Source of the DNA: Candidatus Methylomirabilota bacterium
Lineage (GTDB): Bacteria > Methylomirabilota > Methylomirabilia > Methylomirabilales > Methylomirabilaceae
Length of the DNA: 64,000 nt
Reading direction: 5' to 3'
NCBI GenBank assembly: GCA_003104975.1
Contig: PQAM01000009.1
Coordinates: 1-64,000, forward strand
Shown here one piece after another: positions 5,970 through 46,646 of this stretch. The notes under the pieces are model-generated. The model was not told the DNA's origin. It made no database searches and was given only the letters and a program-made list of their open reading frames with translations. Each line of letters starts with the position of its first letter. Within the stretch, counting starts at the first letter, position 1. Made by a program: the position numbers and the translations under genes.

Positions 5970-6106
5970 AGACTGAAGGGGGAGAGAAGCAGTGTTGAGT
6001 GTTGAGTGAGGAGGGACGAGTGTTAAGTGATAAGTGTTGAGTGTGGAGTGAGGCAGGAACCAATACTTGACACTAGACACTAAACACTAAAACACTACGC
6101 TGGGCG
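5957..6106. repeat. Composite low-complexity repeat block
   Basis: AAGGCTGAAGGCTGAAGACT-type units lead into AGTGTTGAGTGTTGAGTG units, then the opposing ACTTGACACTAGACACTAAACACT units and CTACGCTGGGCG. The opposing halves can fold back on one another. The block joins the AbiEii-like gene to the second copy of the 508-bp TA duplication. Confidence 0.75.
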
Positions 6107-6614
6107 AAGGCCGCGTGATCTCTTGCCTTGTTAAGGGCTCTGTACTACACTGGGTAAAAAGGGGGAGCCATGACATGAAGGCACATTTGCTGGACGAACT
6201 TGTAGGCGCTCTCACGGCCGAGCGGCGCATCAAATCAAAGGGTGTGGTAGAAGAAGCGTTGCTGCTTTATCTGAATACGAATCCGACACTCAAGCTCGAT
6301 GGGGCCATCGCGCTGTGGCGAAAAGGGCGGCTCTCTCTGGCAAAGGCCGCAGAGGTCGTAGGACTCACCGTACCAGAGTTCAAAGATGTCCTGGCAGCCA
6401 GAGGAATCGTTCGTGAGACCGAGGGCAAAAGCACGAAAGTCATGGATGAGAAATTACACAGTCTCCTACCATGAAGATTGCCATCGCCGATACCGATATC
6501 CTCAGCTCCTTCGGTAAGGTCGGCAGAGTGGACCTCCTCCAGCGCCTCTTCCCGAAAATCCTTATTTCTGCAGCAGTGCACAGAGAACTTATGAAAGCCG
6601 AGCAGGCGGGATTG
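6107..6614 (+). repeat. Direct repeat of about 508 bp, copy 2
   Basis: Near-identical to 1448-1955. It carries the promoter, the antitoxin gene and the first part of the toxin gene. The match ends exactly where the toxin frame becomes joined to a HigA-like tail. Confidence 0.9.
6175..6474 (+). CDS. UPF0175-family antitoxin (copy 2)
   Basis: This 99-residue protein differs from the copy at 1516-1815 by about one residue (Ala for Thr in DGAIALWRKG). ATG 6175 has the same GGGGGAG ribosome-binding site 7 bases upstream. Its stop overlaps the next start as ATGA. Its cognate toxin is truncated and chimeric, so this copy may act only as an immunity or cross-regulatory protein for the intact copy. 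Confidence 0.82.
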   Translation: MKAHLLDELVGALTAERRIKSKGVVEEALLLYLNTNPTLKLDGAIALWRKGRLSLAKAAEVVGLTVPEFKDVLAARGIVRETEGKSTKVMDEKLHSLLP

Positions 6615-14771: not shown

Positions 14772-14774
14772 GTG

Positions 14775-16964
14775 ATGACAACCGGTATCATCCTCCTGAC
14801 GTATGCCGGCGCACTTCTGAGTATCGTGGCGGGCACGGTTGTCCTGTATCGTGACAGGCGCTCCCCGGTCCATTGGGCATTCGCGGCCGGCATGGCAGCC
14901 TTGGGTGCGCGGGAGACGCTGATCGCCATCGCTTCCAGCGCCGCCTCGACCCATGAGCTTCTGTGGTGGAGCGGCTCGGCCCTCCTGGTCGAGGCACTCC
15001 TGCCCGGCATCTGGCTGCTCTTCAGTCTAAGTTTTGGCCGCGCTGACTACCGGGTGCTGATCGGGCGTTGGCGGTGGGCGATCGTACTCACCTTTCTCAC
15101 CCTCGTCGCGTTGGCGATCGTCGCGCAGCCTCTCGCCTCCCCAACTCATTTCTTCGCCGTCCCGTTGGATCCGGATCCATCTACGTGGGCTTTTATCCCG
15201 CTCGGCTGGCCCGGGTATCTCTTCCGTCTCGCCTCCTTGCTCGGCTCGCTCGTCGTCTTGATCAACCTCGAACAGATTCTTCGGGCGGCGGTTGGAACCA
15301 AACGGTGGCAGGTCAAGTTCGTGGTGCTCGGTATAGCGGGTGTATTTGCGGTGCGGATCTATACCGACAGCCAAGCCTTGCTGTTCGGCTTTGTCGAGGC
15401 CGCCCCTGACCCCGTCACCGCTGGGAGCGTCGTGCTGGCGAGCCTCCTCGTCCTGCTGTCCCTGGGTCGGATGCGCCTGTTCGACATCGATCTCTATTTG
15501 CACGTGTCGCCGTTCTTGCTGTACAACTCCCTGGCGGTCTCGATCGTGGGGCTCTATCTGTTAGTTGTCGGAGTGGTGGCCCTGGCCCTCAGTCGGCGGG
15601 GAGGGGATCAACTGCTGCCCCTGATCCCGCTTCTGGTATTTCTTGCTATGATGGGTGGGCTGGTCGTCCTGCTGTCGGGCCGATTCCGCCAGTATGCTCG
15701 ACGTCAGATTGCCCGTTACCTGCATCCTCCCACCCATGACTATCGGCGGCAGTGGCGGCGCTTTACCGAATGCACGACCTCACTCCTCGATATCCCTGGG
15801 CTCTGTGGCGCCGTGACACGGATGGTCTCAGAGACGTTTGCGACCCCGTCGGTGACGATCTGGTTGATGAATGAGGCTCAGGATTGCGTGACCCTCGGCG
15901 GCTCGACCGCATTGTCACAGGCCGGCAGTTGGCGCCTCAGCCCGGCGTCCCACGCGGAACCGATTCGCTCGGTCCTCGACCGGCCTACTCCTGTCGAGAT
16001 CGGTCACCCAGGGCAGGCAGACGTGGACTGGCCCGAGCGCTTCCGCGCGGCGGGCCTGGGTCCGCTATTCTGGGGCGATAGCCGCTATGCGGCGCCGTTA
16101 GTGGCCGGACGCGACGAGTTGTTGGGGCTCATGCTGCTCGGTCCGAAGTCAACCGGCGAGCGGTTGACGGTCGAGGACTTCGATCTGCTGAAGACACTCG
16201 CCGATCAGGTCGCCGGCACGCTGCTGAACCTTCAACTTTCGGCGCGGTTGGTGCGGGCCAAGGAGTTGGAGGCGTTCCAGACCGTCTCGGCCTTCTTTGT
16301 CCACGATCTGAAGAATCTGCTGTCGACCCTCTCGCTGCTCGCCTACAACCTGCCGAATCACTATGACGATCCGGACTTTCGCACCGGGGCGCTCCGGGCG
16401 ATGTCTCAGGGTGTAGAGCGGATCGACCGGATGCTGGGCAATCTGTCGCAGATCTCCCAGTCGCTGGCGCTGCAGACGGCCGAGACCGATCTGAATGACC
16501 TTGTGCGGTCCACGCTGGCCGAACTGAACGGATCGGTGAAGAGTACGCTGGTCTGCGATATGCGCCCCGTCCACAAGCTGCTCCTCGATGCAAGGCAGTT
16601 TCAGAAGGTGCTCGTGAACCTGCTGCTGAATGCCGAAGAGGCGGTAGGCGGAAGGCGTGAGGCGGAAGGCGAGAGGGGAGGCGAGAGGCGTGAGGCGGGA
16701 GGCGTGAGGGGGGAAATCAGGATTGAAACGGGGATGCAAAACGGCTCGGTCGTACTGTCGGTGAGCGATAACGGGTGCGGCATATCGCCGACATTTATGG
16801 CGCAGTCGCTCTTTCAGCCGTTCCGGACCACCAAACGGCGCGGGTTGGGGATCGGGCTGTTCCACAGCAAGCAGATTGTTGAGGCGCATCACGGCTGGAT
16901 CGAGGTGGACAGCGAAGAGGGCAAAGGCACCACCTTCCGCATCATCCTGCCAGTAGGGCAGTAA
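14775..16964 (+). CDS. prsK: PEP-CTERM system histidine kinase PrsK
   Basis: The 729-residue protein has an N-terminal block of about nine membrane segments, a GAF-like region, a dimerisation helix with the phospho-acceptor box FFVHDLKNLLSTLSLLAYNL (His510) and a HATPase domain (LLLNAEEAV, DNGCGI, GLGIGL). This order and the HDLKN box are typical of PrsK, the sensor kinase paired with PrsR in exosortase loci. In the ATPase domain, between LLNAEEAV and the strand leading to DNGCGI, is an Arg/Glu/Gly-rich insertion of about 22 residues (GGRREAEGERGGERREAGGV) translated from GAGGCG repeats. GTG 14772 is an alternative start one codon earlier. Confidence 0.9.
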   Translation: MTTGIILLTYAGALLSIVAGTVVLYRDRRSPVHWAFAAGMAALGARETLIAIASSAASTHELLWWSGSALLVEALLPGIWLLFSLSFGRADYRVLIGRWRWAIVLTFLTLVALAIVAQPLASPTHFFAVPLDPDPSTWAFIPLGWPGYLFRLASLLGSLVVLINLEQILRAAVGTKRWQVKFVVLGIAGVFAVRIYTDSQALLFGFVEAAPDPVTAGSVVLASLLVLLSLGRMRLFDIDLYLHVSPFLLYNSLAVSIVGLYLLVVGVVALALSRRGGDQLLPLIPLLVFLAMMGGLVVLLSGRFRQYARRQIARYLHPPTHDYRRQWRRFTECTTSLLDIPGLCGAVTRMVSETFATPSVTIWLMNEAQDCVTLGGSTALSQAGSWRLSPASHAEPIRSVLDRPTPVEIGHPGQADVDWPERFRAAGLGPLFWGDSRYAAPLVAGRDELLGLMLLGPKSTGERLTVEDFDLLKTLADQVAGTLLNLQLSARLVRAKELEAFQTVSAFFVHDLKNLLSTLSLLAYNLPNHYDDPDFRTGALRAMSQGVERIDRMLGNLSQISQSLALQTAETDLNDLVRSTLAELNGSVKSTLVCDMRPVHKLLLDARQFQKVLVNLLLNAEEAVGGRREAEGERGGERREAGGVRGEIRIETGMQNGSVVLSVSDNGCGISPTFMAQSLFQPFRTTKRRGLGIGLFHSKQIVEAHHGWIEVDSEEGKGTTFRIILPVGQ
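16645..16712 (+). repeat. GAGGCG-type repeat inside prsK
   Basis: Units such as AGGCGGAAGGCGTGAGGCGG run through the ATPase-domain coding sequence without breaking the frame. The same unit type fills many intergenic gaps in the window. Confidence 0.8.
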
Positions 16965-16967
16965 AGG

Positions 16968-17082
16968 AGCAGTGTGGAGACAAGGCAGTGTTAAGACAAG
17001 GCAGTGTCGAGACAACTCAACACTTCACACTTAACACTCACTCACCACTTAACCACTTCACACTCAACACCCTTTCACACTC
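16968..17082. repeat. CACTTAACACT-type repeat ahead of the IVP gene
   Basis: After ACAAGGCAGTGTTAAGACAA comes a run of CACTTCACACTTAACACTCA-like units up to the ribosome-binding site of the four-helix-bundle gene. Similar units (TACCACTCAACACTTAACAC) form the last codons of that gene at about 17468-17494, so it is bracketed by the repeat. Confidence 0.75.
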
Positions 17083-17090
17083 AGAGGAAG

Positions 17091-17507
17091 ATGATTACGA
17101 GCTTTAAATATCTCAAGGTGTGGGAGCGAGCCGATCAACTCGCTCATAAGATCTTCGACATGACTGAGGCATTTCCAAAAGTCTATCTCTATGATTTAGT
17201 GAGTCAGTTACGAAGAGCGGCATTGTCGATACCGACAAACATTGCCGAGGGGTGCGCAAGTGTTCATTCCAGTGAATTCCTGCAGTTTCTTAATATCGCT
17301 AGAAGGTCGCTGAGTGAAACACAGTATCTTGTAGGTTTCGCGTTCAGGCGTCAGCTCATACAGCAGGCTGAGTTGCTGGAGCTGGAGTCGCTCTTCATCG
17401 AGATCAGCAAGATGCTGAATAGCCTGATGGCTTCGATTCGGCGCAAAAAACGCCCACTTTCCTCGTTACCACTTACCACTCAACACTTAACACTTCCCCC
17501 TGGTTGA
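17091..17507 (+). CDS. Four-helix-bundle protein (IVP / S23 family)
   Basis: The 138-residue product (FKYLKVWERADQLAHKIFDM, then RRAALSIPTNIAEGCA, FLNIARRSLSETQYLV) is a clear member of the four-helix-bundle family first seen as open frames in 23S rRNA intervening sequences. The function is unknown. It has a good GAGGAAG ribosome-binding site. Its last residues (LPLTTQHLTLPPG) are translated from CACTTAACACT repeats, and its TGA overlaps the ATG of prsR. The gene splits what is normally an uninterrupted prsK-prsR pair. Confidence 0.88.
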   Translation: MITSFKYLKVWERADQLAHKIFDMTEAFPKVYLYDLVSQLRRAALSIPTNIAEGCASVHSSEFLQFLNIARRSLSETQYLVGFAFRRQLIQQAELLELESLFIEISKMLNSLMASIRRKKRPLSSLPLTTQHLTLPPG

Positions 17508-29367: not shown

Positions 29368-29863
29368 GTAGGGGCGCAATTTATTGCGCCCACGACCCGG
29401 CGCGGGCGCAATCGCATACGTCGAACATCCGCCCCATCCACAGGGCGTGATGAATCACGCCCCGACGACGGGCGACAACCCAACGGGCGCGATGAATCGC
29501 GCCCCGACGACGGCCACGCGGGGATACGGCCAATCGGGCGTGGAAAGCCCTTTCGGCTTGACATCACCGGATCGCTTCGTTAGGCTCCATTTGTCTGAAC
29601 ATGCCTATTGTCATTGTAGGGGCGCAATTTATTGCGCCCACGACCCGGCGCGGGCGCAATCGCATACGTCGAACATCCGCCCCATCCACAGGGCGTGATG
29701 AATCACGCCCCGACGACGGGCGACAACCCAACGGGCGCGATGAATCGCGCCCCGACGACGGCCACGCGGGGATACGGCCAATCGGGCGTGGAAAGCCCTT
29801 TCGGCTTGACATCACCGGATCGCTTCGTTAGGCTCCATTTGTCTGAACATGCCTATTGTCGTT
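29368..29863 (+). repeat. Tandem pair of 248-bp units built of REP-like palindromes
   Basis: Unit 1 is 29368-29615 and unit 2 is 29616-29863, differing by only a few bases; a third begins at 29864. Each unit opens with GTAGGGGCGCAATTTATTGC, contains GGGCGTGATGAATCACGCCC and GGGCGCGATGAATCGCGCCC palindromes, and ends with a GGCTTGACATCACCGGATCG stretch. Confidence 0.9.
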
Positions 29864-35791: not shown

Positions 35792-37146
35792 GGCTATCTG
35801 ACGAGGCATGCCGGGAGATGCAGGAATTGATCGCCAGGCGGTTGGGGCTGGACTTTCCTGAGAATCGTCAGGCTGACCTCGAGCGGGGGCTCGCGCGGGC
35901 GCTCCGAGGCGCATCGATTCGGTCGCCGGACGCGTATCTGGCATGGCTGGCTACCTTGCCGGATGAGAGTCCGGAGTGGAGGCGGCTGGCCGACCACCTT
36001 ACGGTGGGCGAAACCTACTTCTTCCGCGACCCGGGCTGCTTTGAGGCGCTGGAGCAGCAGGTCCTTCCCTCCCTTATTGCCGAACGCCGGTCGGCGGGTA
36101 ACCTCAGGCTCCGGTTCTGGAGCGCCGGATGCGCCACCGGCGAAGAGCCGTACTCTCTCGCCATCCTGCTGGATCGCTTGCTCCCAGACCTCGCGGATTG
36201 GTCGCTGACGATTCTGGCGACAGACATCAATTCGGAGGCTCTGGAGGTGGCCCGGCGAGGGGTATATCGGCAGTGGCCGCTCCGCGAAACCCCTTCATGG
36301 GTTCGGGATCGATACTTCTACCGCCACGAAACAGAGGCGTATGAGGTAGACCCAAGGATTCAACGAATGGTCAGTCTTGCCCCGCTTAACCTGGCCGAGG
36401 ATGGGTATCCGGCCGTCGTCACCAATACCACCGCTATGGATCTGATCCTTTGTCGCAACGTCCTGATGTACTTTACCGACGAGGCCCAACGGGCGTGCGT
36501 CACGCGTTTGCAACGGGCGCTTGTACCCGGAGGATGGCTAGTCGTCGGTCCGGCTGAAGCCTCTACCGATCTGCTCAGCCCGCTGGCCCCCGTGACCTTC
36601 CCCAACGCCATCTTGTATCGGAAGGAGCAGCCATCGGCTAGCAGCCATCAGCCATCAGCTTTCGTCCCCTCGCCCCCATTTGCTTTTCCCCAACCCCTAT
36701 CCCCCAACTCCCAACCCCCGTCTTCTGCTCCCCAACCCCTATCCCCCAACCCCCAGCCCCTGCTCGAGCGCGCGCGAGCGTTGGCCGATCAAGGCAACCT
36801 GGAGGAAGCCTACCATTTGTGTAAGACCGCGCTGGCGAAGGATCAGCTTGACCCCGAAGCCCACCTTCTTTTGGCTGCGATCTGTCAGGAACGAGGGGAG
36901 ATCTCCGAAGCGCTTGAAACGCTCCGTCGGGTTATTTACCTGACGCCGGATTCGGCGTCGGCCTACTTCCTCATGGGGAGCCTGCTGCTGCGACAGGGGA
37001 AGCGCGGCCAGGGACGGCGATCCATGGAGACGGTGGTGAGCCTCTTACAGACCGTTCCCGGCCATGAGACAGTGGCGGGCAGTGCCGGCCTGACGGCGGG
37101 TCGGCTTCTGGAGACCGCCCGGGCGTATCTGGAGTTGTCCGCATGA
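35788..37146 (+). CDS. CheR-type methyltransferase with TPR domain (WspC-like)
   Basis: The 452-residue protein has a CheR domain (LTVGETYFFRDPGCFEALEQ, RFWSAGCATGEEPYSLAILL, DLILCRNVLMYF) using S-adenosylmethionine to methylate receptor glutamates, and a C-terminal TPR region (RALADQGNLEEAYHLCKTAL on). The linker, roughly residues 285-328, is a Pro/Ser/Gln tract (PQPLSPNSQPPSSAPQPLSP) from C-tract repeats at 36632-36763. It overlaps both neighbours by 4 bases. Confidence 0.9.
   Translation: MRLSDEACREMQELIARRLGLDFPENRQADLERGLARALRGASIRSPDAYLAWLATLPDESPEWRRLADHLTVGETYFFRDPGCFEALEQQVLPSLIAERRSAGNLRLRFWSAGCATGEEPYSLAILLDRLLPDLADWSLTILATDINSEALEVARRGVYRQWPLRETPSWVRDRYFYRHETEAYEVDPRIQRMVSLAPLNLAEDGYPAVVTNTTAMDLILCRNVLMYFTDEAQRACVTRLQRALVPGGWLVVGPAEASTDLLSPLAPVTFPNAILYRKEQPSASSHQPSAFVPSPPFAFPQPLSPNSQPPSSAPQPLSPNPQPLLERARALADQGNLEEAYHLCKTALAKDQLDPEAHLLLAAICQERGEISEALETLRRVIYLTPDSASAYFLMGSLLLRQGKRGQGRRSMETVVSLLQTVPGHETVAGSAGLTAGRLLETARAYLELSA
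36632..36763 (+). repeat. C-tract repeat inside the CheR linker
   Basis: CAGCCATCAGCCATCAGC is followed by CCCCAACCCCTATCCCCCAA-type units in frame. The units are related to those in the cheA gene at 39688-39964 and 40861-40905. Confidence 0.82.
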
Positions 37147-39296: not shown

Positions 39297-41513
39297 ATGA
39301 CGGCGAGTCGGAACCAAGAAATCAAGGCGCGGCTGCTGGCCACGTTTCGGGTGGAGGCCGAAGAGCACTTGCAGGCGATCACGACGAACCTCCTGGCCTT
39401 GGAAGGGGGTCCGCCGCCTGCTCAGACCCGTGAGCTGGTGGAGGCGACGTTCCGCGAGATGCACACCCTGAAAGGCGCCGCCCGCTCTGTGAGCCTGATG
39501 GATGTGGAGGCGCTCTGCCAGGCGTGTGAATCGGTCCTGAGTCAGGTTGTTCAGGGTCGCCTAGTACTCAATCGTTCGCTTGTGGATGGCGTGCAGGAGG
39601 CGGTCGATGGCGTGGCCCGCCTGCTGTCCGGACACGCCGATTCGACGACGGCGTCCGATCTGATCCGGCGCCTCGAAGAGACGGGGGATAGGGGTCGGGG
39701 GTTAGGGGTTGGTCCCCAATCCCCAACCCCCAATCTCCAACCCCCAACACCTGTCCCCTACGGGGACACCGTCCGGCTATCCACGGCCAAGCTGGATGCG
39801 CTGCTGCTGCAGGCCGAGGACCTCCTGGTCCCAAAGCTCGCTGCCGGGGAGCGAGCGCGAGAAGCACAAGGGTTGCTCGAGGCGGTGAAGCGGCTGAGAG
39901 CAGGGGATAGGGGATGGGGGTTGGGGGTTAGGAAACCATCCCCCAACCCCCATCCCCTATCCCCTGGTCTTTATGCCCCATCCCCCGCTCTTCGGGCGTT
40001 GGAGGCTCAGGCCGAGGCGCTGTGCCGGCATCTCGCCGTGGACCAACGAACGATCGGCAGGGCGGTGGATGGTCTGCAGGAAGAGTTGCGGCAGATACGG
40101 CTGATGCCCGCTTCGACGATCCTGGATCTCTTTCCGCGGATGATTCGCGACCTGGCAAGCGAGCGCGGTAAAGAGATAGAGTGGGCGACTCAAGGCGCCG
40201 ATCTGGAGGTGGATCGGAAGATCCTGGAGGCGATGAAAGAGCCGCTCATCCATCTGGTGCGAAACGCCGTTGATCACGGTATCGAGTCGTCCGAGACCCG
40301 GGCGCAGACAGGCAAGACCGGCCATGGTCGCGTCGCGGTGACCATCGCCTCACTGGAGGGCGGGCGGGTCGAGATCCGCGTGGAGGACGACGGGCGCGGG
40401 ATCGATTTCGCGGGGGTCAGGGCAGCGGCCGTCCGGATCCGTGTCCTGACGGCCGAGGCGGCGGAGACCCTGACCGATGCCGAGGCAATGGAACTGATCT
40501 ATCGCTCCGGCCTCAGTACGAGCCCGATTATTACCGATCTCTCCGGGCACGGCTTGGGGCTGGCCATCGTGAAGGAGCGGGTCGAGCGGCTGGGCGGCGA
40601 GATCGGGGTCGAGACGCGGGCGGGGGTGGGGACAACGGTGCGGATTATCGTCCCAGCCAGCATCGCGACCTTCCGCGGCCTTCTGGTTCGGGTCGGCGAG
40701 CAGCCGTTCCTCCTTCCGATGGAGGGGATCGAGCAGGCGATCCGGGTGGGCGCGGATGCGATCGAGCGTGTGGAGGGCCGCGAAGCGATTCGTTGGAGCG
40801 GTCATCCCCTTCCTGTCGCCCGGCTCTGCGACCTGTTGGGGCTCCCGCAGCAGCAGAACTCAGACCCTCCCCATCCCCCATCCCCTAACCTCCACCCCCC
40901 GTCATTCGGCGTCGTCGTGCAGTCCGGCGACGAACGGGCGGGACTCCTGGTTGATGAGATCCTGGGGGAGCGGGAGGTACTGGTTAAGGAGTTCGGACCA
41001 CCGCTTGTCCGGGTGAAGAACGTGGCAGGGACGGGTCTCCTGGGGGGCGGCGAGGTCGTGTTGATCCTCCGCACGGCCGATCTTTTGAAGTCAGCCCGGC
41101 GACTCTATCGCGCCCCTGCGCCCCCTGCAGAGAAGGGGGAGCAGCGTGGCCAGGCGGTCATTCTCGTGGTCGACGACTCCATTACAACGCGGACGATGGA
41201 GAAGAACCTCCTGGAGGCGGCAGGCTACCGGGTGTGCACGGCGGTGGACGGAATGGAGGCCTGGACGCTGCTCAAGAGCGAGGAGGTCGATCTGGTGGTG
41301 TCAGACCTGGACATGCCCCGGTTGGACGGCTTTGAGCTGACGGCCCGGATCCGGGCCGACCGGAAGCTGGCCGACCTGCCGGTGGTGCTGGTGACGGCGC
41401 TCGAGTCGCGGCAAGACAAGGAACGGGGGGTTGAAGTGGGCGCCAACGCCTACATCATCAAGTCGAGCTTTGACCAGTCGAACCTCCTCGAGATCATTGG
41501 GCGACTGATATAA
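39297..41513 (+). CDS. CheA-type kinase fused to a receiver (WspE-like)
   Basis: The 738-residue protein has an HPt domain (EMHTLKGAARSVSLM, His near 56), a dimerisation/HATPase core (LVRNAVDHGIE, DDGRGIDFAG, GHGLGLAIVKERVE), a CheW-like P5 domain and a C-terminal receiver (ILVVDDSITTRT, LVVSDLDMPRLDGFE). The CheA-REC fusion is typical of Wsp-like systems. Three low-complexity tracts interrupt it in frame, near residues 130-158, 202-228 and 522-540, all translated from G/C-tract repeats. Two antisense frames over this gene are shadows. Confidence 0.9.
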   Translation: MTASRNQEIKARLLATFRVEAEEHLQAITTNLLALEGGPPPAQTRELVEATFREMHTLKGAARSVSLMDVEALCQACESVLSQVVQGRLVLNRSLVDGVQEAVDGVARLLSGHADSTTASDLIRRLEETGDRGRGLGVGPQSPTPNLQPPTPVPYGDTVRLSTAKLDALLLQAEDLLVPKLAAGERAREAQGLLEAVKRLRAGDRGWGLGVRKPSPNPHPLSPGLYAPSPALRALEAQAEALCRHLAVDQRTIGRAVDGLQEELRQIRLMPASTILDLFPRMIRDLASERGKEIEWATQGADLEVDRKILEAMKEPLIHLVRNAVDHGIESSETRAQTGKTGHGRVAVTIASLEGGRVEIRVEDDGRGIDFAGVRAAAVRIRVLTAEAAETLTDAEAMELIYRSGLSTSPIITDLSGHGLGLAIVKERVERLGGEIGVETRAGVGTTVRIIVPASIATFRGLLVRVGEQPFLLPMEGIEQAIRVGADAIERVEGREAIRWSGHPLPVARLCDLLGLPQQQNSDPPHPPSPNLHPPSFGVVVQSGDERAGLLVDEILGEREVLVKEFGPPLVRVKNVAGTGLLGGGEVVLILRTADLLKSARRLYRAPAPPAEKGEQRGQAVILVVDDSITTRTMEKNLLEAAGYRVCTAVDGMEAWTLLKSEEVDLVVSDLDMPRLDGFELTARIRADRKLADLPVVLVTALESRQDKERGVEVGANAYIIKSSFDQSNLLEIIGRLI
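39688..39765. repeat. G-tract/C-tract inverted repeat in cheA, first
   Basis: GGGGATAGGGGTCGGGGGTT is followed by TCCCCAATCCCCAACCCCCA, giving an imperfect long hairpin within the coding sequence. Confidence 0.82.
39903..39964. repeat. Perfect 25-bp inverted repeat in cheA
   Basis: The left arm (39903-39927) consists of four G-tracts of 4, 4, 5 and 5 G separated by ATA, AT and TT. The right arm (39940-39964) is its exact complement and the loop is 12 bases. The left arm also satisfies the four-tract pattern of a G-quadruplex. It is in frame and encodes DRGWGLGV...PSPNPHPLSP. Confidence 0.92.
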
Positions 41514-42589: not shown

Positions 42590-42613
42590 AGGGACCGGTT
42601 GGAGGAGGTGGAC

Positions 42614-43960
42614 ATGGCGCAACGCAGGATTCTTGTCGTCGAGGATAGCCCGACGCAGGCGGAACGAGTCCGCCTCCTACTGGAGTGCGAGGGCTACCGC
42701 GTTGAAACGGCTGCGAATGGTCGGGAGGGGCTCCGGCGGATTCAGGCGTCGCCACCGGATATCATCATTTCCGATGTCGTCATGCCGGAGATGGACGGCT
42801 TTGCGCTCTGCCGGGCGGTGAAGTCGGCCGAGGCCACGCGTCGGATCCCCTTCGTCCTGCTGACCCAGCGGAGCGCGCCCCCGGATGTCATCCAGGGATT
42901 CGAGGCCGGCGCCGATAATTTCATCCCCAAGCCATTCGACGACGATGCGCTGCTGGAGCGCGTGCGGCGGATTTTCGAGCAGATGGACCGACAGGCGTGC
43001 GAAGGGCCGGAGCCCGAGGTGGCCCTACAGATCGGCGGCCACCGATTCGTCGTGTCGGCGCGCAAGGCACAGATCGTGGAACTGCTCCTCTTTACCCTGG
43101 AGGATCTGGCGCGGGTCAATGCGCTGCTGCAGGCGCGCGAGCGAGACCTGGAGGCCAAGGCGCGCGAGTTGGAGACCTTCGCCTACACGGTCTCCCACGA
43201 CCTGAAGGCGCCGCTGCGGGGGATGGAGGGGTTTGCCAAAGCCCTGTACGAAGACTACGCCGACCGGCTGGACGAGACGGGCCGCCACTATCTTGACATG
43301 GTCCAAGGGTCGGCCCGGCGCATGGGCGCCCTGATCGACGATCTGCTCCGCTACTCCCGTGTCGAGCGGCGGGCGATGCGGTGGGAGCCGGTTGATCTGG
43401 AGCGGCTGCTGCACGAGCTGCTGAGGGACCGGCGGGCCGAGATCGAGAGCCGCGGCGTTCGGATCGAGGTCAAGCCGACGGTTTATCGGATCGCCGGTGA
43501 GCGGGAGGGCCTTCAGGAGGCGTTGACCAATCTGCTGGACAATGCCTTGAAGTTTACGCGGAAGACGGCGCAGCCTGTGATCACGATCACCGCCGGCGTG
43601 AAACGTGAGGCGTTAGGCGTCAGGGGACAGGACACCTCTCCTCACGCCTTACCCCTTACGCCTGACGAGAGGCACCGGGAGACAGGCGCCGGGACGCAGG
43701 AGGCAGGAGGGGGCGATTTCGTGGAAATCGCCGTCGCCGATAACGGCGTGGGGTTTGACCCACAGTACCGGGAAAAAGCATTCACCATCTTTGAGCGGTT
43801 GCACCCCCAGGACGAGTATGAAGGGACCGGGATCGGCCTGGCCATTGTCCGCAAGGTGGCGGAACGCCACGGCGGACACACCTGGGCGGACAGCGCCCCG
43901 GGACAGGGAGCGACGTTTTACCTGGCGATCCCGATTCGCAAGGAGGATTCTGACGCATGA
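42614..43960 (+). CDS. Response regulator-histidine kinase hybrid
   Basis: ATG 42614 has GGAGGAGGTG upstream. The 448-residue protein has an N-terminal receiver (ILVVEDSPTQAERVRLLLEC, IIISDVVMPEMDG), a HisKA helix (FAYTVSHDLKAPLRGMEGFA) and a HATPase domain. In the ATPase domain, just before GDFVEIAVADNGVGF, is an insertion of about 36 residues (VKREALGVRGQDTSPHALPL, then TPDERHRETGAG) from a GAGGCG repeat and its inverse at 43597-43700. A bacteriophytochrome-like or Wsp-linked role is possible but no sensor domain is visible. Confidence 0.88.
   Translation: MAQRRILVVEDSPTQAERVRLLLECEGYRVETAANGREGLRRIQASPPDIIISDVVMPEMDGFALCRAVKSAEATRRIPFVLLTQRSAPPDVIQGFEAGADNFIPKPFDDDALLERVRRIFEQMDRQACEGPEPEVALQIGGHRFVVSARKAQIVELLLFTLEDLARVNALLQARERDLEAKARELETFAYTVSHDLKAPLRGMEGFAKALYEDYADRLDETGRHYLDMVQGSARRMGALIDDLLRYSRVERRAMRWEPVDLERLLHELLRDRRAEIESRGVRIEVKPTVYRIAGEREGLQEALTNLLDNALKFTRKTAQPVITITAGVKREALGVRGQDTSPHALPLTPDERHRETGAGTQEAGGGDFVEIAVADNGVGFDPQYREKAFTIFERLHPQDEYEGTGIGLAIVRKVAERHGGHTWADSAPGQGATFYLAIPIRKEDSDA
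43597..43700. repeat. GAGGCG-type inverted repeat in a histidine kinase
   Basis: GTGAGGCGTTAGGCGTCAGG is followed after a short gap by CCTCACGCCTTACCCCTTAC and GCCTGACG, opposing copies of the same unit, all in frame. Confidence 0.82.
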
Positions 43961-44490
43961 ACAGACGGTCGCTGGCGATCCTGATGGTGGAAGACAACCC
44001 GATGGATGTGGAGCTGACGCTGCGGGCGCTGCGGAAGCACAAGGTCTCCAACCCGATGACGGTGGCCCGGGACGGCGAGGAGGCGCTCGACTACGTCCAT
44101 CGGCGGGGGCGGTTCGCCGCCCACGCCCCGATCCCATCGCTCATCCTGCTGGACATACGGCTTCCCAAGCGGGACGGGATCGAGGTCCTCCGGGAGATCA
44201 AGGGACACCCCGTCTATCGTACGGTTCCCGTCGTCATGCTGACCACTTCGCAGGAGGAGGCGGACGTCCGGACCAGTTACGAGCTGGGCGCCAATTCATA
44301 TATCGTCAAGCCGGTGGACTTCGACAAGTTTCTGGAGGTCGTTCGACAGATCGACCTCTACTGGCTGCTGACGAACCTACCTCCGGTAGCGGCTGCGCGC
44401 CTGCGAGACCTGTCCGCGCCGGGCGAGCTCGATTCGACCACGGCCGGGTCCGACGCGCTGCAGGAGCCATTGTCACAGGAGGATGCCTGA
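43957..44490 (+). CDS. Rcp1-type single-domain response regulator
   Basis: The 177-residue protein is a receiver of the Rcp1/phytochrome-linked kind (ILMVEDNPMDVELTLRALRK, LILLDIRLPKRDGIEVLREI, GANSYIVKPVDFDKF) with a short Thr/Ala-rich tail and no output domain. It overlaps the kinase gene by 4 bases and the next gene by 1, so it is probably phosphorylated by the adjacent kinase. Confidence 0.88.
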   Translation: MNRRSLAILMVEDNPMDVELTLRALRKHKVSNPMTVARDGEEALDYVHRRGRFAAHAPIPSLILLDIRLPKRDGIEVLREIKGHPVYRTVPVVMLTTSQEEADVRTSYELGANSYIVKPVDFDKFLEVVRQIDLYWLLTNLPPVAAARLRDLSAPGELDSTTAGSDALQEPLSQEDA

Positions 44491-46646
44491 TGGACAACAT
44501 CCGGGTACTGTACGCCGAGGACGATCCGGCGGATCGCGAATTGACACTGCACCATCTGCGTCGGTCCGCTCCGGACATACAGGTGCGGGTGGCGGGCACC
44601 GGTCAAGAGACGCTGGAGGCCTTGAGAGACGAGGCCTTCGATGTCGTCCTCCTGGACTACCGTCTGCCGGACGTCGATGGCCTGCAGCTTCTGCGAGATG
44701 TCTTGTCCGCCGCTCCGAACGTCCCGGTCTTGATGGTGACAGGGAGCGGAGACCATGAGGTCGCGGTCGCGGCGCTGAAAACCGGGGCCATGGATTACGT
44801 TATCAAGAAGCCCGGCCACCTGGACCGCCTGCCGAGCGCGATTCGGGAGGCGCTGAGCCGGTTTCGGTATGAGCGGAGTCGTCGCGCGGCCGGCCTTCGC
44901 GTCCTATACGCCGAACATGATCCCGTGGATGTAGATCTGACCCTACGCCATCTGGCAGCTCATGCGCTTCATTTGCAGGTCGAAACGGTCGGAACGGGCG
45001 TCTCCGCCATGCAGCGACTTCAGACCGGTAAATATGATCTCCTGCTCCTGGACTACCGGATGCCCGGTCTGAATGGCGTAGAGATTCTCCAGGAGATGCG
45101 CGAGCAGGGGATCCGCGTCCCCGTGGTGATGGTCACCGGCCACGGCGACGAAGAGACCGCCGCCCAGGCGCTCAAGCTGGGGGCGGTGGACTATCTCGTC
45201 AAGCGGGAGGGGTATCTGAGGCAGCTTCCCTCGACCATCGAGAGCGCTATCGCCCAGCAGGCGCTCGCTGACGAGAAAGCGGCCCTCCTTACCCTGAACG
45301 GCCTCGCGGTGAAGGTTGCGTCAACCCTGGATCTCAATGAACTGTTGTCCCAAGTGGCCACTGCTGCAACCACCTTGCTCCGGGTGGATCATTCGCTGGT
45401 TTCCCGCTTGAGCGATGACAGCGCAGAGCTGCTCCCCGCTGCCTGGCATGGCATTCCGACTGAGGTAGCCTCGTGCCTGCGGTTCAGGTTAGGTCAGGAC
45501 GCCCCCGGTCAGGCCGCGGCATGGCAACGGGCCGTCAGCGTCCGGGACATCAGACAAGAAGTGACTATCTGCCGGAAGCTGGCGGTCCTCAATGGGATCG
45601 GGGGTGTGCTCGGCGCCCCGATGCTGGCCCGCGGCAGGCTCCTTGGCGTACTGACGGTCGCCGCCACCGGGCCGCGCGCCTATACCCACGTAGAGGAGAA
45701 GCTGCTGACGGCCCTGGCTGCTCATGCCGCCGTGGGGATCGAGAATGCGCAACTGCTCGCGGAGGTCAAGCGGTATGCTGTCGGGCTGGAACAGATGGTT
45801 CTGGAACGTACGGAGGAGCTGATGGCGACCAACCGACGGCTCGAGGTGGTCTCCCGCCACAAGTCGGAGTTTCTGGCCAACATGTCGCATGAGTTCCGGA
45901 CGCCGCTCAACTCGATCATCGGCTTTTCCGAGATCATCCGGGATCCCGCCTTCGGCCCATTGACCGACAAGCAGGCCCGATTTGCCCGGAATATCCTGAC
46001 GGCGGGGGAGCATCTCTTGGTGCTGGTCAACGACCTGCTGGATCTTTCGCGGGTCGAAGCGGGACGGATCGACCTGCAGATCGAGCCGTTCGGGCTGCCG
46101 GAGGCGTTGCAGGCCGCTGTGGCGGACATCCGGCCCCAGGCCGACCGAAAACGACTTGACCTGCGGCTTCAAATCGATGAGGCGCCGCCAACCCTGACGA
46201 CCGATCCTCTCCGCTTCAAGCAGATCATGTTGAACCTGCTCTCGAACGCCGTCAAGTTTACGCCCGACGGGGGGCGGATCACCGTCACCGCCCGGAGCGG
46301 CGGGAGGCGTGAGGGGGAAGGCGTAAAGGGGGAGGAGGCAGGAGGCAGGCTTCAGGATGCAGCGCCCCTACCCCCTACCCCCCACACCCTACACCCTGGC
46401 GATTTCGTAGAAATCGCCGTCATCGACACGGGGATCGGGATCAGGGGGGACGACCTGCCGCGCCTGTTCCAGGAGTTTACCCGTCTCGACGCGGCGACGA
46501 CCCGGCGCATCCCGGGGACCGGACTGGGCCTCGCCTTGACCAAGAAACTGGTTGAATTGCACGGCGGCACCATCGCTGCTGGCTCAGAGGGCGAAGGACA
46601 GGGGAGCACCTTCACGATCCAGCTTCCGCTGACCGCCACCGGATGA
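44490..46646 (+). CDS. Hybrid kinase with two receivers, GAF and histidine kinase domains
   Basis: Starting at ATG 44490 (CAGGAGGA upstream; earlier in-frame codons overlap two other genes), the 718-residue protein has two receivers in tandem (VLLDYRLPDVDG near 55, LLLDYRMPGLNG near 186), a GAF domain, a HisKA box (FLANMSHEFRTPLNSIIGFS) and a HATPase domain. In the second receiver the acidic pair reads AEHDP rather than AEDDP. Before GDFVEIAVIDTGIGI is an insertion of about 30 residues from GAGGCG and C-tract repeats (46300-46405). Confidence 0.9.
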   Translation: MDNIRVLYAEDDPADRELTLHHLRRSAPDIQVRVAGTGQETLEALRDEAFDVVLLDYRLPDVDGLQLLRDVLSAAPNVPVLMVTGSGDHEVAVAALKTGAMDYVIKKPGHLDRLPSAIREALSRFRYERSRRAAGLRVLYAEHDPVDVDLTLRHLAAHALHLQVETVGTGVSAMQRLQTGKYDLLLLDYRMPGLNGVEILQEMREQGIRVPVVMVTGHGDEETAAQALKLGAVDYLVKREGYLRQLPSTIESAIAQQALADEKAALLTLNGLAVKVASTLDLNELLSQVATAATTLLRVDHSLVSRLSDDSAELLPAAWHGIPTEVASCLRFRLGQDAPGQAAAWQRAVSVRDIRQEVTICRKLAVLNGIGGVLGAPMLARGRLLGVLTVAATGPRAYTHVEEKLLTALAAHAAVGIENAQLLAEVKRYAVGLEQMVLERTEELMATNRRLEVVSRHKSEFLANMSHEFRTPLNSIIGFSEIIRDPAFGPLTDKQARFARNILTAGEHLLVLVNDLLDLSRVEAGRIDLQIEPFGLPEALQAAVADIRPQADRKRLDLRLQIDEAPPTLTTDPLRFKQIMLNLLSNAVKFTPDGGRITVTARSGGRREGEGVKGEEAGGRLQDAAPLPPTPHTLHPGDFVEIAVIDTGIGIRGDDLPRLFQEFTRLDAATTRRIPGTGLGLALTKKLVELHGGTIAAGSEGEGQGSTFTIQLPLTATG
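46300..46405. repeat. GAGGCG-type and C-tract repeat in a histidine kinase
   Basis: GCGGGAGGCGTGAGGGGGAA and GGAGGAGGCAGGAGGCAGGC lead into CCCCTACCCCCTACCCCCCA and CACCCTACACCCTGG. The frame stays open. Confidence 0.82.

Follow-up and report, generated by a model that had tools for sequence, protein, structure and literature searches.

Rickettsia palindromic elements (RPEs) are palindromic repeats that lie in frame within unrelated protein genes, at positions tolerated by the fold, and also between genes (PMC10969869, PMC2229807). The 23S rRNA intervening sequence (IVS) of Coxiella contains an S23 open reading frame (ORF), a 28-bp terminal inverted repeat and tandem GACAGAT heptamers immediately before the ORF; S23 itself is a small four-helix protein reported without a known function (PMC4990558). 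The heptanucleotide repeats of cyanobacteria and Xanthomonas (STRRs; GGGAATC, GGGGA(C/T)T) are tandem 7-bp units that are G-rich and mainly intergenic (PMC4692102). In the open-licence papers that we searched, heptads in kinase loops are not reported, and neither are S23 genes between heptad arms, except for the Coxiella heptamers.

In-frame heptad inserts in kinases of the window

We analysed a 64,000-nucleotide stretch of DNA (the window) from a Candidatus Methylomirabilota bacterium (contig PQAM01000009.1, assembly GCA_003104975.1). A preliminary description had reported that three histidine kinases encoded here each carry a repeat-derived insertion, in frame, between the N-box helix and the strand that leads to the DxGxG box. 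Translation bears out both the frame and the placement in all three kinases (Table 1). The further statement that the inserts occupy the same point is correct for the two hybrid kinases, W43 and the double-receiver kinase, in which they sit at the tip of a hairpin between the strand ITVTAR or ITITA and the strand (D)FVEIAV, before DxGxG. It does not extend to the PrsK-like kinase: when this is aligned with L076, a homologue without repeats (40% identity), the insert falls between the N-box helix (NAEEAV) and the strand EIRIET, in the loop that precedes the hairpin tip. The PrsK array consists of 7-bp units of the GGCGGAA/GGCGTGA type, with the frame open throughout, and the gene has candidate start codons at 14772 (GTG) and 14775 (ATG). 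No close PrsK orthologue was found within the genus; the best relative is 40% identical.

The host kinases possess HisKA and HATPase_c domains with N and DxGxG boxes, except that PrsK has HATPase_c with no HisKA match in Pfam. In both hybrid kinases the Pfam HATPase_c match is split or shortened by the insert. An AlphaFold2 model of the double-receiver kinase (277 amino acids, mean pLDDT 86, pTM 0.77, from 36 aligned sequences) has a strand at residues 155-163, a low-confidence coil at 164-197 that corresponds to the insert, and a strand at 198-205, the remainder being mostly well folded. The insert is predicted by this model to be the tip of a beta-hairpin, and the sequence and fold of the kinase agree with those of the solved histidine kinases GacS and HK853.

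The codons for GDFVEIA form a perfect 9-bp inverted repeat, GGCGATTTCGTNGAAATCGCC, at 43712-43732 and again at 46398-46418, and this inverted repeat recurs in kinases of several species.

Table 1. Kinase, chemotaxis and S23 genes of the window with their heptad arrays. Positions count from the first letter of the window.
Feature	Position	Strand	Remarks
PrsK-like histidine kinase (7TM, GAF, HATPase_c)	14772..16964	+	Pfam HisKA_7TM, GAF, HATPase_c 606-729
One-directional in-frame heptad array in PrsK	16639..16709	+	between N-box helix and strand EIRIET
Upstream heptad-like arms of S23 gene: AGTGTTA type, then inverted CAACACT/TAACACT type	16974..17082		read directly, below array threshold
S23 / 23S rRNA intervening-sequence protein (IVP) gene, PF05635	17091..17507	+	E 9.7e-33, 113 bits, cut-off 33.8
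Downstream C-rich heptad arm of S23 gene	17466..17497		within S23 C-terminal coding end
CheR-TPR protein, in-frame heptad arrays	36642..36760	+	between CheR and TPR domains
CheA-like kinase, in-frame heptad arrays	39713..39965	+	outside domains, between Hpt (12-107) and HATPase (316-454)
Receiver-HisKA-HATPase hybrid kinase W43	42599..43960	+	Pfam; start may be ATG at 42614
W43 in-frame insert at hairpin tip	43595..43714	+	not in orthologues of G001, G005, G017
W43 G-rich heptad arm, GGCGTGA type	43597..43631	+	
W43 C-rich inverted heptad arm CCTCACGCCTTACCCCTTACGCC	43638..43670	-	
W43 second G-rich array, degenerate	43677..43713	+	
GGCGATTTCGTGGAAATCGCC, 9-bp inverted repeat encoding GDFVEIA in W43	43712..43732		
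Double-receiver, GAF, HisKA, HATPase kinase	44490..46646	+	Pfam
Double-receiver kinase in-frame insert, predicted disordered hairpin tip	46302..46403	+	AlphaFold2 model
Double-receiver kinase G-rich heptad arm	46302..46350	+	
Double-receiver kinase C-rich inverted heptad arm	46365..46397	-	

An Rfam search of the window returned nothing on the inserts, its sole match being a c-di-GMP-I-GGC riboswitch on the minus strand at 862-941 (RF03167, 71.7 bits). The window also contains another palindromic repeat family between 21049 and 30349 (GGGCG(C/T)GATGAATC(G/A)CGCCCC and GTAGGGGCGCAATTTATTGCGCCC, at least 13 copies), a perfect tandem duplication of 248 bp (29368-29863), and a 300-bp direct repeat (1447-1746 and 6106-6405, 99% identical) beside heptad arrays, with a small open frame in each copy.

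Distribution, gain and rewriting of the kinase loops

Pfam family PF02518 has 46 matches in this genome, representing about 44 HATPase_c domains (two domains are split in two). Hairpin-tip heptad inserts are present in six of these: alongside the two window hybrids, kinases on contigs C1, C4, C6 and C18 carry one. Insertions at random kinase sites, which would have counted against the preliminary description, were not seen in this genome. All six kinases belong to the class that reads [IVL]KFT after the N box, of which three further members have loops of 10-12 residues. In other kinase classes the longer loops show neither palindromes nor a signal at period 21. Nearly all members of the large HKSEFL family in this genus and order have a long loop. 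We also compared 80 distant homologues from many phyla; among those that were readable, nearly all have 25-32 amino acids between the boxes and a few have 35-47, which are not palindromic. The natural insert of equal length that would have undercut the preliminary description was not found among them.

The DNA of 52 loops from the order, which exceed those of distant homologues in length, is strongly periodic, with identities of 0.53, 0.47 and 0.40 at lags of 7, 14 and 21 against a level of about 0.27. Halves of one loop are more complementary to each other than are mixed halves (8.9 versus 5.8, p<5e-5); the corresponding values for long loops of other kinase classes are 5.5 and 5.3 (p=0.24). 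The 5' half is the more G-rich in 46 of the 52. In a first test, palindromicity lay above every shuffle in only about half of 38 loops; the double-receiver insert and the one-way PrsK array do not beat every shuffle, and folding z-scores reach -6 in some loops. The idea that a hairpin is needed in every copy is not supported, as many loops show none above shuffles. Core loop lengths peak at 17, 24 and 31 amino acids and are uneven modulo 7 (p=6e-7); the steps of seven residues, equal to three heptads, are in line with the need to keep the frame. Across the order the position is kept and the repeat unit changes between species, and the loop sequence varies even among orthologues (VSSSEFQVSSSQPETRNPKPETPTSP in G006 versus VASGKREVSSTDPPPSVQDTQHSTLNTFP in the orthologue from this genome).

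We built a tree of the kinase core without the loop. On this tree, which was made by a quick method and has some long branches, at least ten gain or loss changes are required. Most insert-bearing kinases fall in one large family (39 tree rows). W43 groups with orthologues from three other genomes (G001, G005 and G017). Their loops have 8-9 residues, and that of W43 is about 36 residues longer. The W43 insert is therefore a recent gain. The strand that follows it reads DFVEIAV, as in other insert-bearing kinases, in place of the ERVVQV or ERVLQV of the orthologues, and this changed strand suggests that the insert region may have been copied from another insert-bearing kinase. Over 74 bp, the W43 loop has 84% identity to that of the non-orthologous C1 kinase (E 1e-14), the sole long shared copy found among kinase loops in the DNA examined. 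Elsewhere on the tree, the C4 kinase and its orthologues, which have inserts, are sister to a G022 kinase whose loop has 6 residues. The earlier reading of the inserts as independent hits thus holds for W43 and fits the number of changes on the tree, but most of one kinase family inherited the insert and then had it rewritten. The insert was thus gained separately several times and was also inherited over long periods while being rewritten.

Heptad arrays in genes, linkers and around S23 loci

We scanned 2.04 of the 3.0 Mb of this genome, contigs C4, C6 and some small contigs being seen only through their kinase loci, and found 151 period-7 arrays, compared with 1-7 for each of periods 5, 8, 10, 11 and 13. 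Because other periods give almost none, a chance origin of the arrays is ruled out. They are tandem, degenerate 7-bp units, mostly intergenic: by our own gene calls (1,930 genes, 86% coding), 53 of the 151 lie in genes, against 130 expected, and arrays are thus depleted in genes. The GGCG-type unit has 147 matches here and is near control level in 14 genomes of the same genus, but several genomes from a different family of the order again have it in abundance.

The genes that bear arrays include those for CarA, dihydroorotase, a radical SAM-DUF2344 protein, a HemD-URO-D fusion, FlhF, the CheA-like and CheR-TPR proteins of the window and a molybdopterin oxidoreductase. Internal arrays lie mostly between or outside Pfam domains, as they do in these genes, in linkers or termini, and a few are within domain loops (a glycosyltransferase and the head domain of a CCA enzyme). 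This distribution, together with the variable length and predicted disorder of the hairpin tip, supports the earlier suggestion of a loop that tolerates insertions. Targeting of kinases, the other suggestion made at the time, is not needed, given that similar inserts occur in many other genes and, throughout the genus, in CarA. The kinase loop is a tolerated harbour for a genome-wide element and not a kinase-specific target.

The interdomain linker of CarA (L435-L461, from much of the order) provides a second alignable site. In all 13 readable members of the genus it contains two heptad arms around a QLxLF-like core; comparable arms in a more decayed state are present in families f2 and f3, and family f4 has no heptads in this linker. 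The units differ by species, complementarity between the two arms is often lacking, and linker length is almost constant, that of this genome being 21 bp shorter. CarA linkers resemble kinase loops more closely within a genome than between genomes (17.5 versus 11.0, p<2e-4), and kinase loops likewise match the S23 flanks of their own genome (18.4 versus 12.6, p<2e-4). Controls with reversed, uncomplemented sequence gave no same-genome effect. These matches between unlinked loci therefore indicate one shared repeat family per genome, a pattern that point mutation alone does not produce.

Directly downstream of prsK, between heptad arms, lies an S23 gene, which scores below the cut-off on the bAvd model (27.5 of 40 bits). 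In the 2.04 Mb scanned, all five S23 genes have an array within 50 bp, an arrangement expected for 4-8% of genes (p about 1e-7 to 3e-6), and most of the five show, by eye, inverted arms on both sides. The association recurs in eight relatives (21 of 28 S23 genes versus 7 of 101 control windows, p 1e-12) and on cyanobacterial plasmids from Nostoc, Calothrix and Anabaena (11 of 14 versus 1 of 56 controls, p 2e-9), although some S23 loci are related and these adjacency p values are consequently too strong. In the relatives, the two flanks of each S23 gene share an inverted unit of their own: the inverted match scores 19.3 between flanks of one locus and 8.6 with those of other loci (p<5e-5).

Wherever the neighbours of an S23 locus are known, the locus is flanked by protein genes and does not lie in a 23S rRNA helix. 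On the cyanobacterial plasmids (L467-L480), S23 genes with inverted heptad arms are slotted into tight operons. An AGTAGGG...CCCTACT pair surrounds one between nrdB and nrdA (L469), and another with inverted arms lies between cas6 and cas4 (L468). At a third locus, between cas10 and cmr3 (L480), no array exceeds the threshold. The kinase and CarA inserts carry no ORF of their own.

Origin of the inserts and relation to described systems

We propose that the kinase inserts are solo, non-autonomous remains, in the form of arms, of S23/IVS-like mobile elements, kept where the protein tolerates them. We regard this explanation as probable because the same kind of arms flank S23/IVP genes. In the genome-wide element, a G-rich heptad arm would be opposed by an inverted, C-rich one, and the inserts would be its solo copies. 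Copies would land throughout the genome, mostly between genes, and those in genes would survive only in frame and where a floppy segment is tolerated, as at the HATPase beta-hairpin tip, in interdomain linkers and at termini. The current heptad family of the genome would then overwrite the resident units with the frame preserved, the probable means being template switching or recombination among copies. Mobility of the element is what we infer from these patterns, and the S23 protein may act on the arms, although adjacency alone is no proof of such a role. Neither target-site duplications nor strain-level presence or absence of copies was seen, which counts against the proposal, as do the loops whose palindromicity does not exceed every shuffle, the frequent lack of complementarity between CarA arms and the fact that no solo copy was traced to a specific S23 parent.

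The same loops could also have arisen by descent and slippage alone, from a single ancestral gain that spread by gene duplication and whose units were altered by replication slippage with no mobile element involved. The concentration of inserts in one kinase family and their conserved lengths fit such a history, and slippage by the polymerase has already been put forward to explain heptamer repeats in bacteria (PMC4692102). However, W43 lies in a different clade whose other members lack the insert, which already weakens this account, and the 74-bp copy common to W43 and the C1 kinase, the sharing of one unit by unlinked loci of a genome and the number of changes on the tree are also against it, leaving it unlikely. 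Even less probable is site-specific targeting of the HATPase hairpin by an enzyme or by hairpin recognition, perhaps at the palindrome encoding GDFVEIA. Insert position is very constant, a palindrome of 9-11 bp adjoins the insert in several kinases from several species, and IVSs replace a small rRNA loop (PMC4990558). Against this, the palindrome is missing from the repeat-free orthologues of W43 and is thus not a needed target, so that we reject it as the insertion site for this kinase; it may merely reflect common codons for DFVEI, and the many unrelated genes that carry arrays have no evident site in common.

A selected function, whether of an RNA or DNA hairpin (in translation pausing or as an RNase III site) or of a useful flexible peptide, would account for the conservation of position over the order, the near-constant CarA linker and the loops with the lowest folding z-scores. 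But many loops have no hairpin above shuffles, neither sequence nor peptide is conserved, and the f4 CarA and the W43 orthologues manage without an insert; we think such a function improbable as the explanation. That the loop is naturally long, or its repeats a product of chance, has next to no probability: some unrelated kinases do have 35-47 residues at this place, but the lack of palindromes in them, the lengths in nearly all distant homologues and the strong 7-bp period refute it.

The proposed origin from S23/IVS-like elements can be taken a step further, to an unrecognised class of mobile element comprising an S23 gene between inverted 7-bp arms, with a unit private to each copy, whose solo arms spread through genomes, become lodged in frame in tolerated protein loops and stay similar within a genome through overwriting. 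We offer this class tentatively, giving it somewhat less than an even chance. If real, it would unite cyanobacterial heptanucleotide repeats, rRNA intervening sequences and the kinase-loop inserts, and such a common element would be informative about where bacterial heptanucleotide repeats come from and what role S23/IVP plays. The kinase loop and the CarA linker are clean, alignable sites for following the turnover of in-frame repeats across species, and they show selfish DNA becoming protein in core signalling and metabolic enzymes. For annotation, the inserts explain the splitting of these HATPase domains in Pfam and advise caution in reading function into peptides such as PETRNPKPET.

Among described systems, the STRRs resemble the arrays in being tandem, degenerate 7-bp units that are mostly intergenic. 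However, the STRR study treats single arrays and reports no associated gene (PMC4692102), whereas here we find inverted pairs, in-frame genic copies and an association with S23 that extends to the plasmids of Nostoc, Calothrix and Anabaena. MITEs and REP/RAYT systems likewise pair short, inverted copies that are non-autonomous with a partner presumed to be autonomous, but the arrays have no fixed terminal sequence, and S23 is a small four-helix protein.

The RPEs share with the inserts in-frame copies inside conserved protein genes. They differ in being about 105-150 bp long with conserved family sequences, whereas the inserts are 7-bp arrays whose unit varies by species and locus, which hold one conserved position across orthologues and paralogues, and which have counterparts of the same kind beside S23 genes. 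The likeness to the 23S rRNA IVS lies in an S23 ORF inside inverted repeats, in a dispensable loop, with heptamers adjoining the ORF in Coxiella (PMC4990558); terminal inverted repeats are present at our S23 loci too, and the S23 gene of the window does lie between arms. The loci described here, however, stand between protein genes instead of in a 23S rRNA helix, their arms are heptad arrays, and short copies in protein-coding loops, such as the kinase and CarA inserts, contain no S23 ORF. IVSs are cut from rRNA by RNase III, whereas the kinase inserts are translated. In summary, the mode of action is like that of the RPEs and the rRNA IVSs, yet a defining feature of each is absent here.
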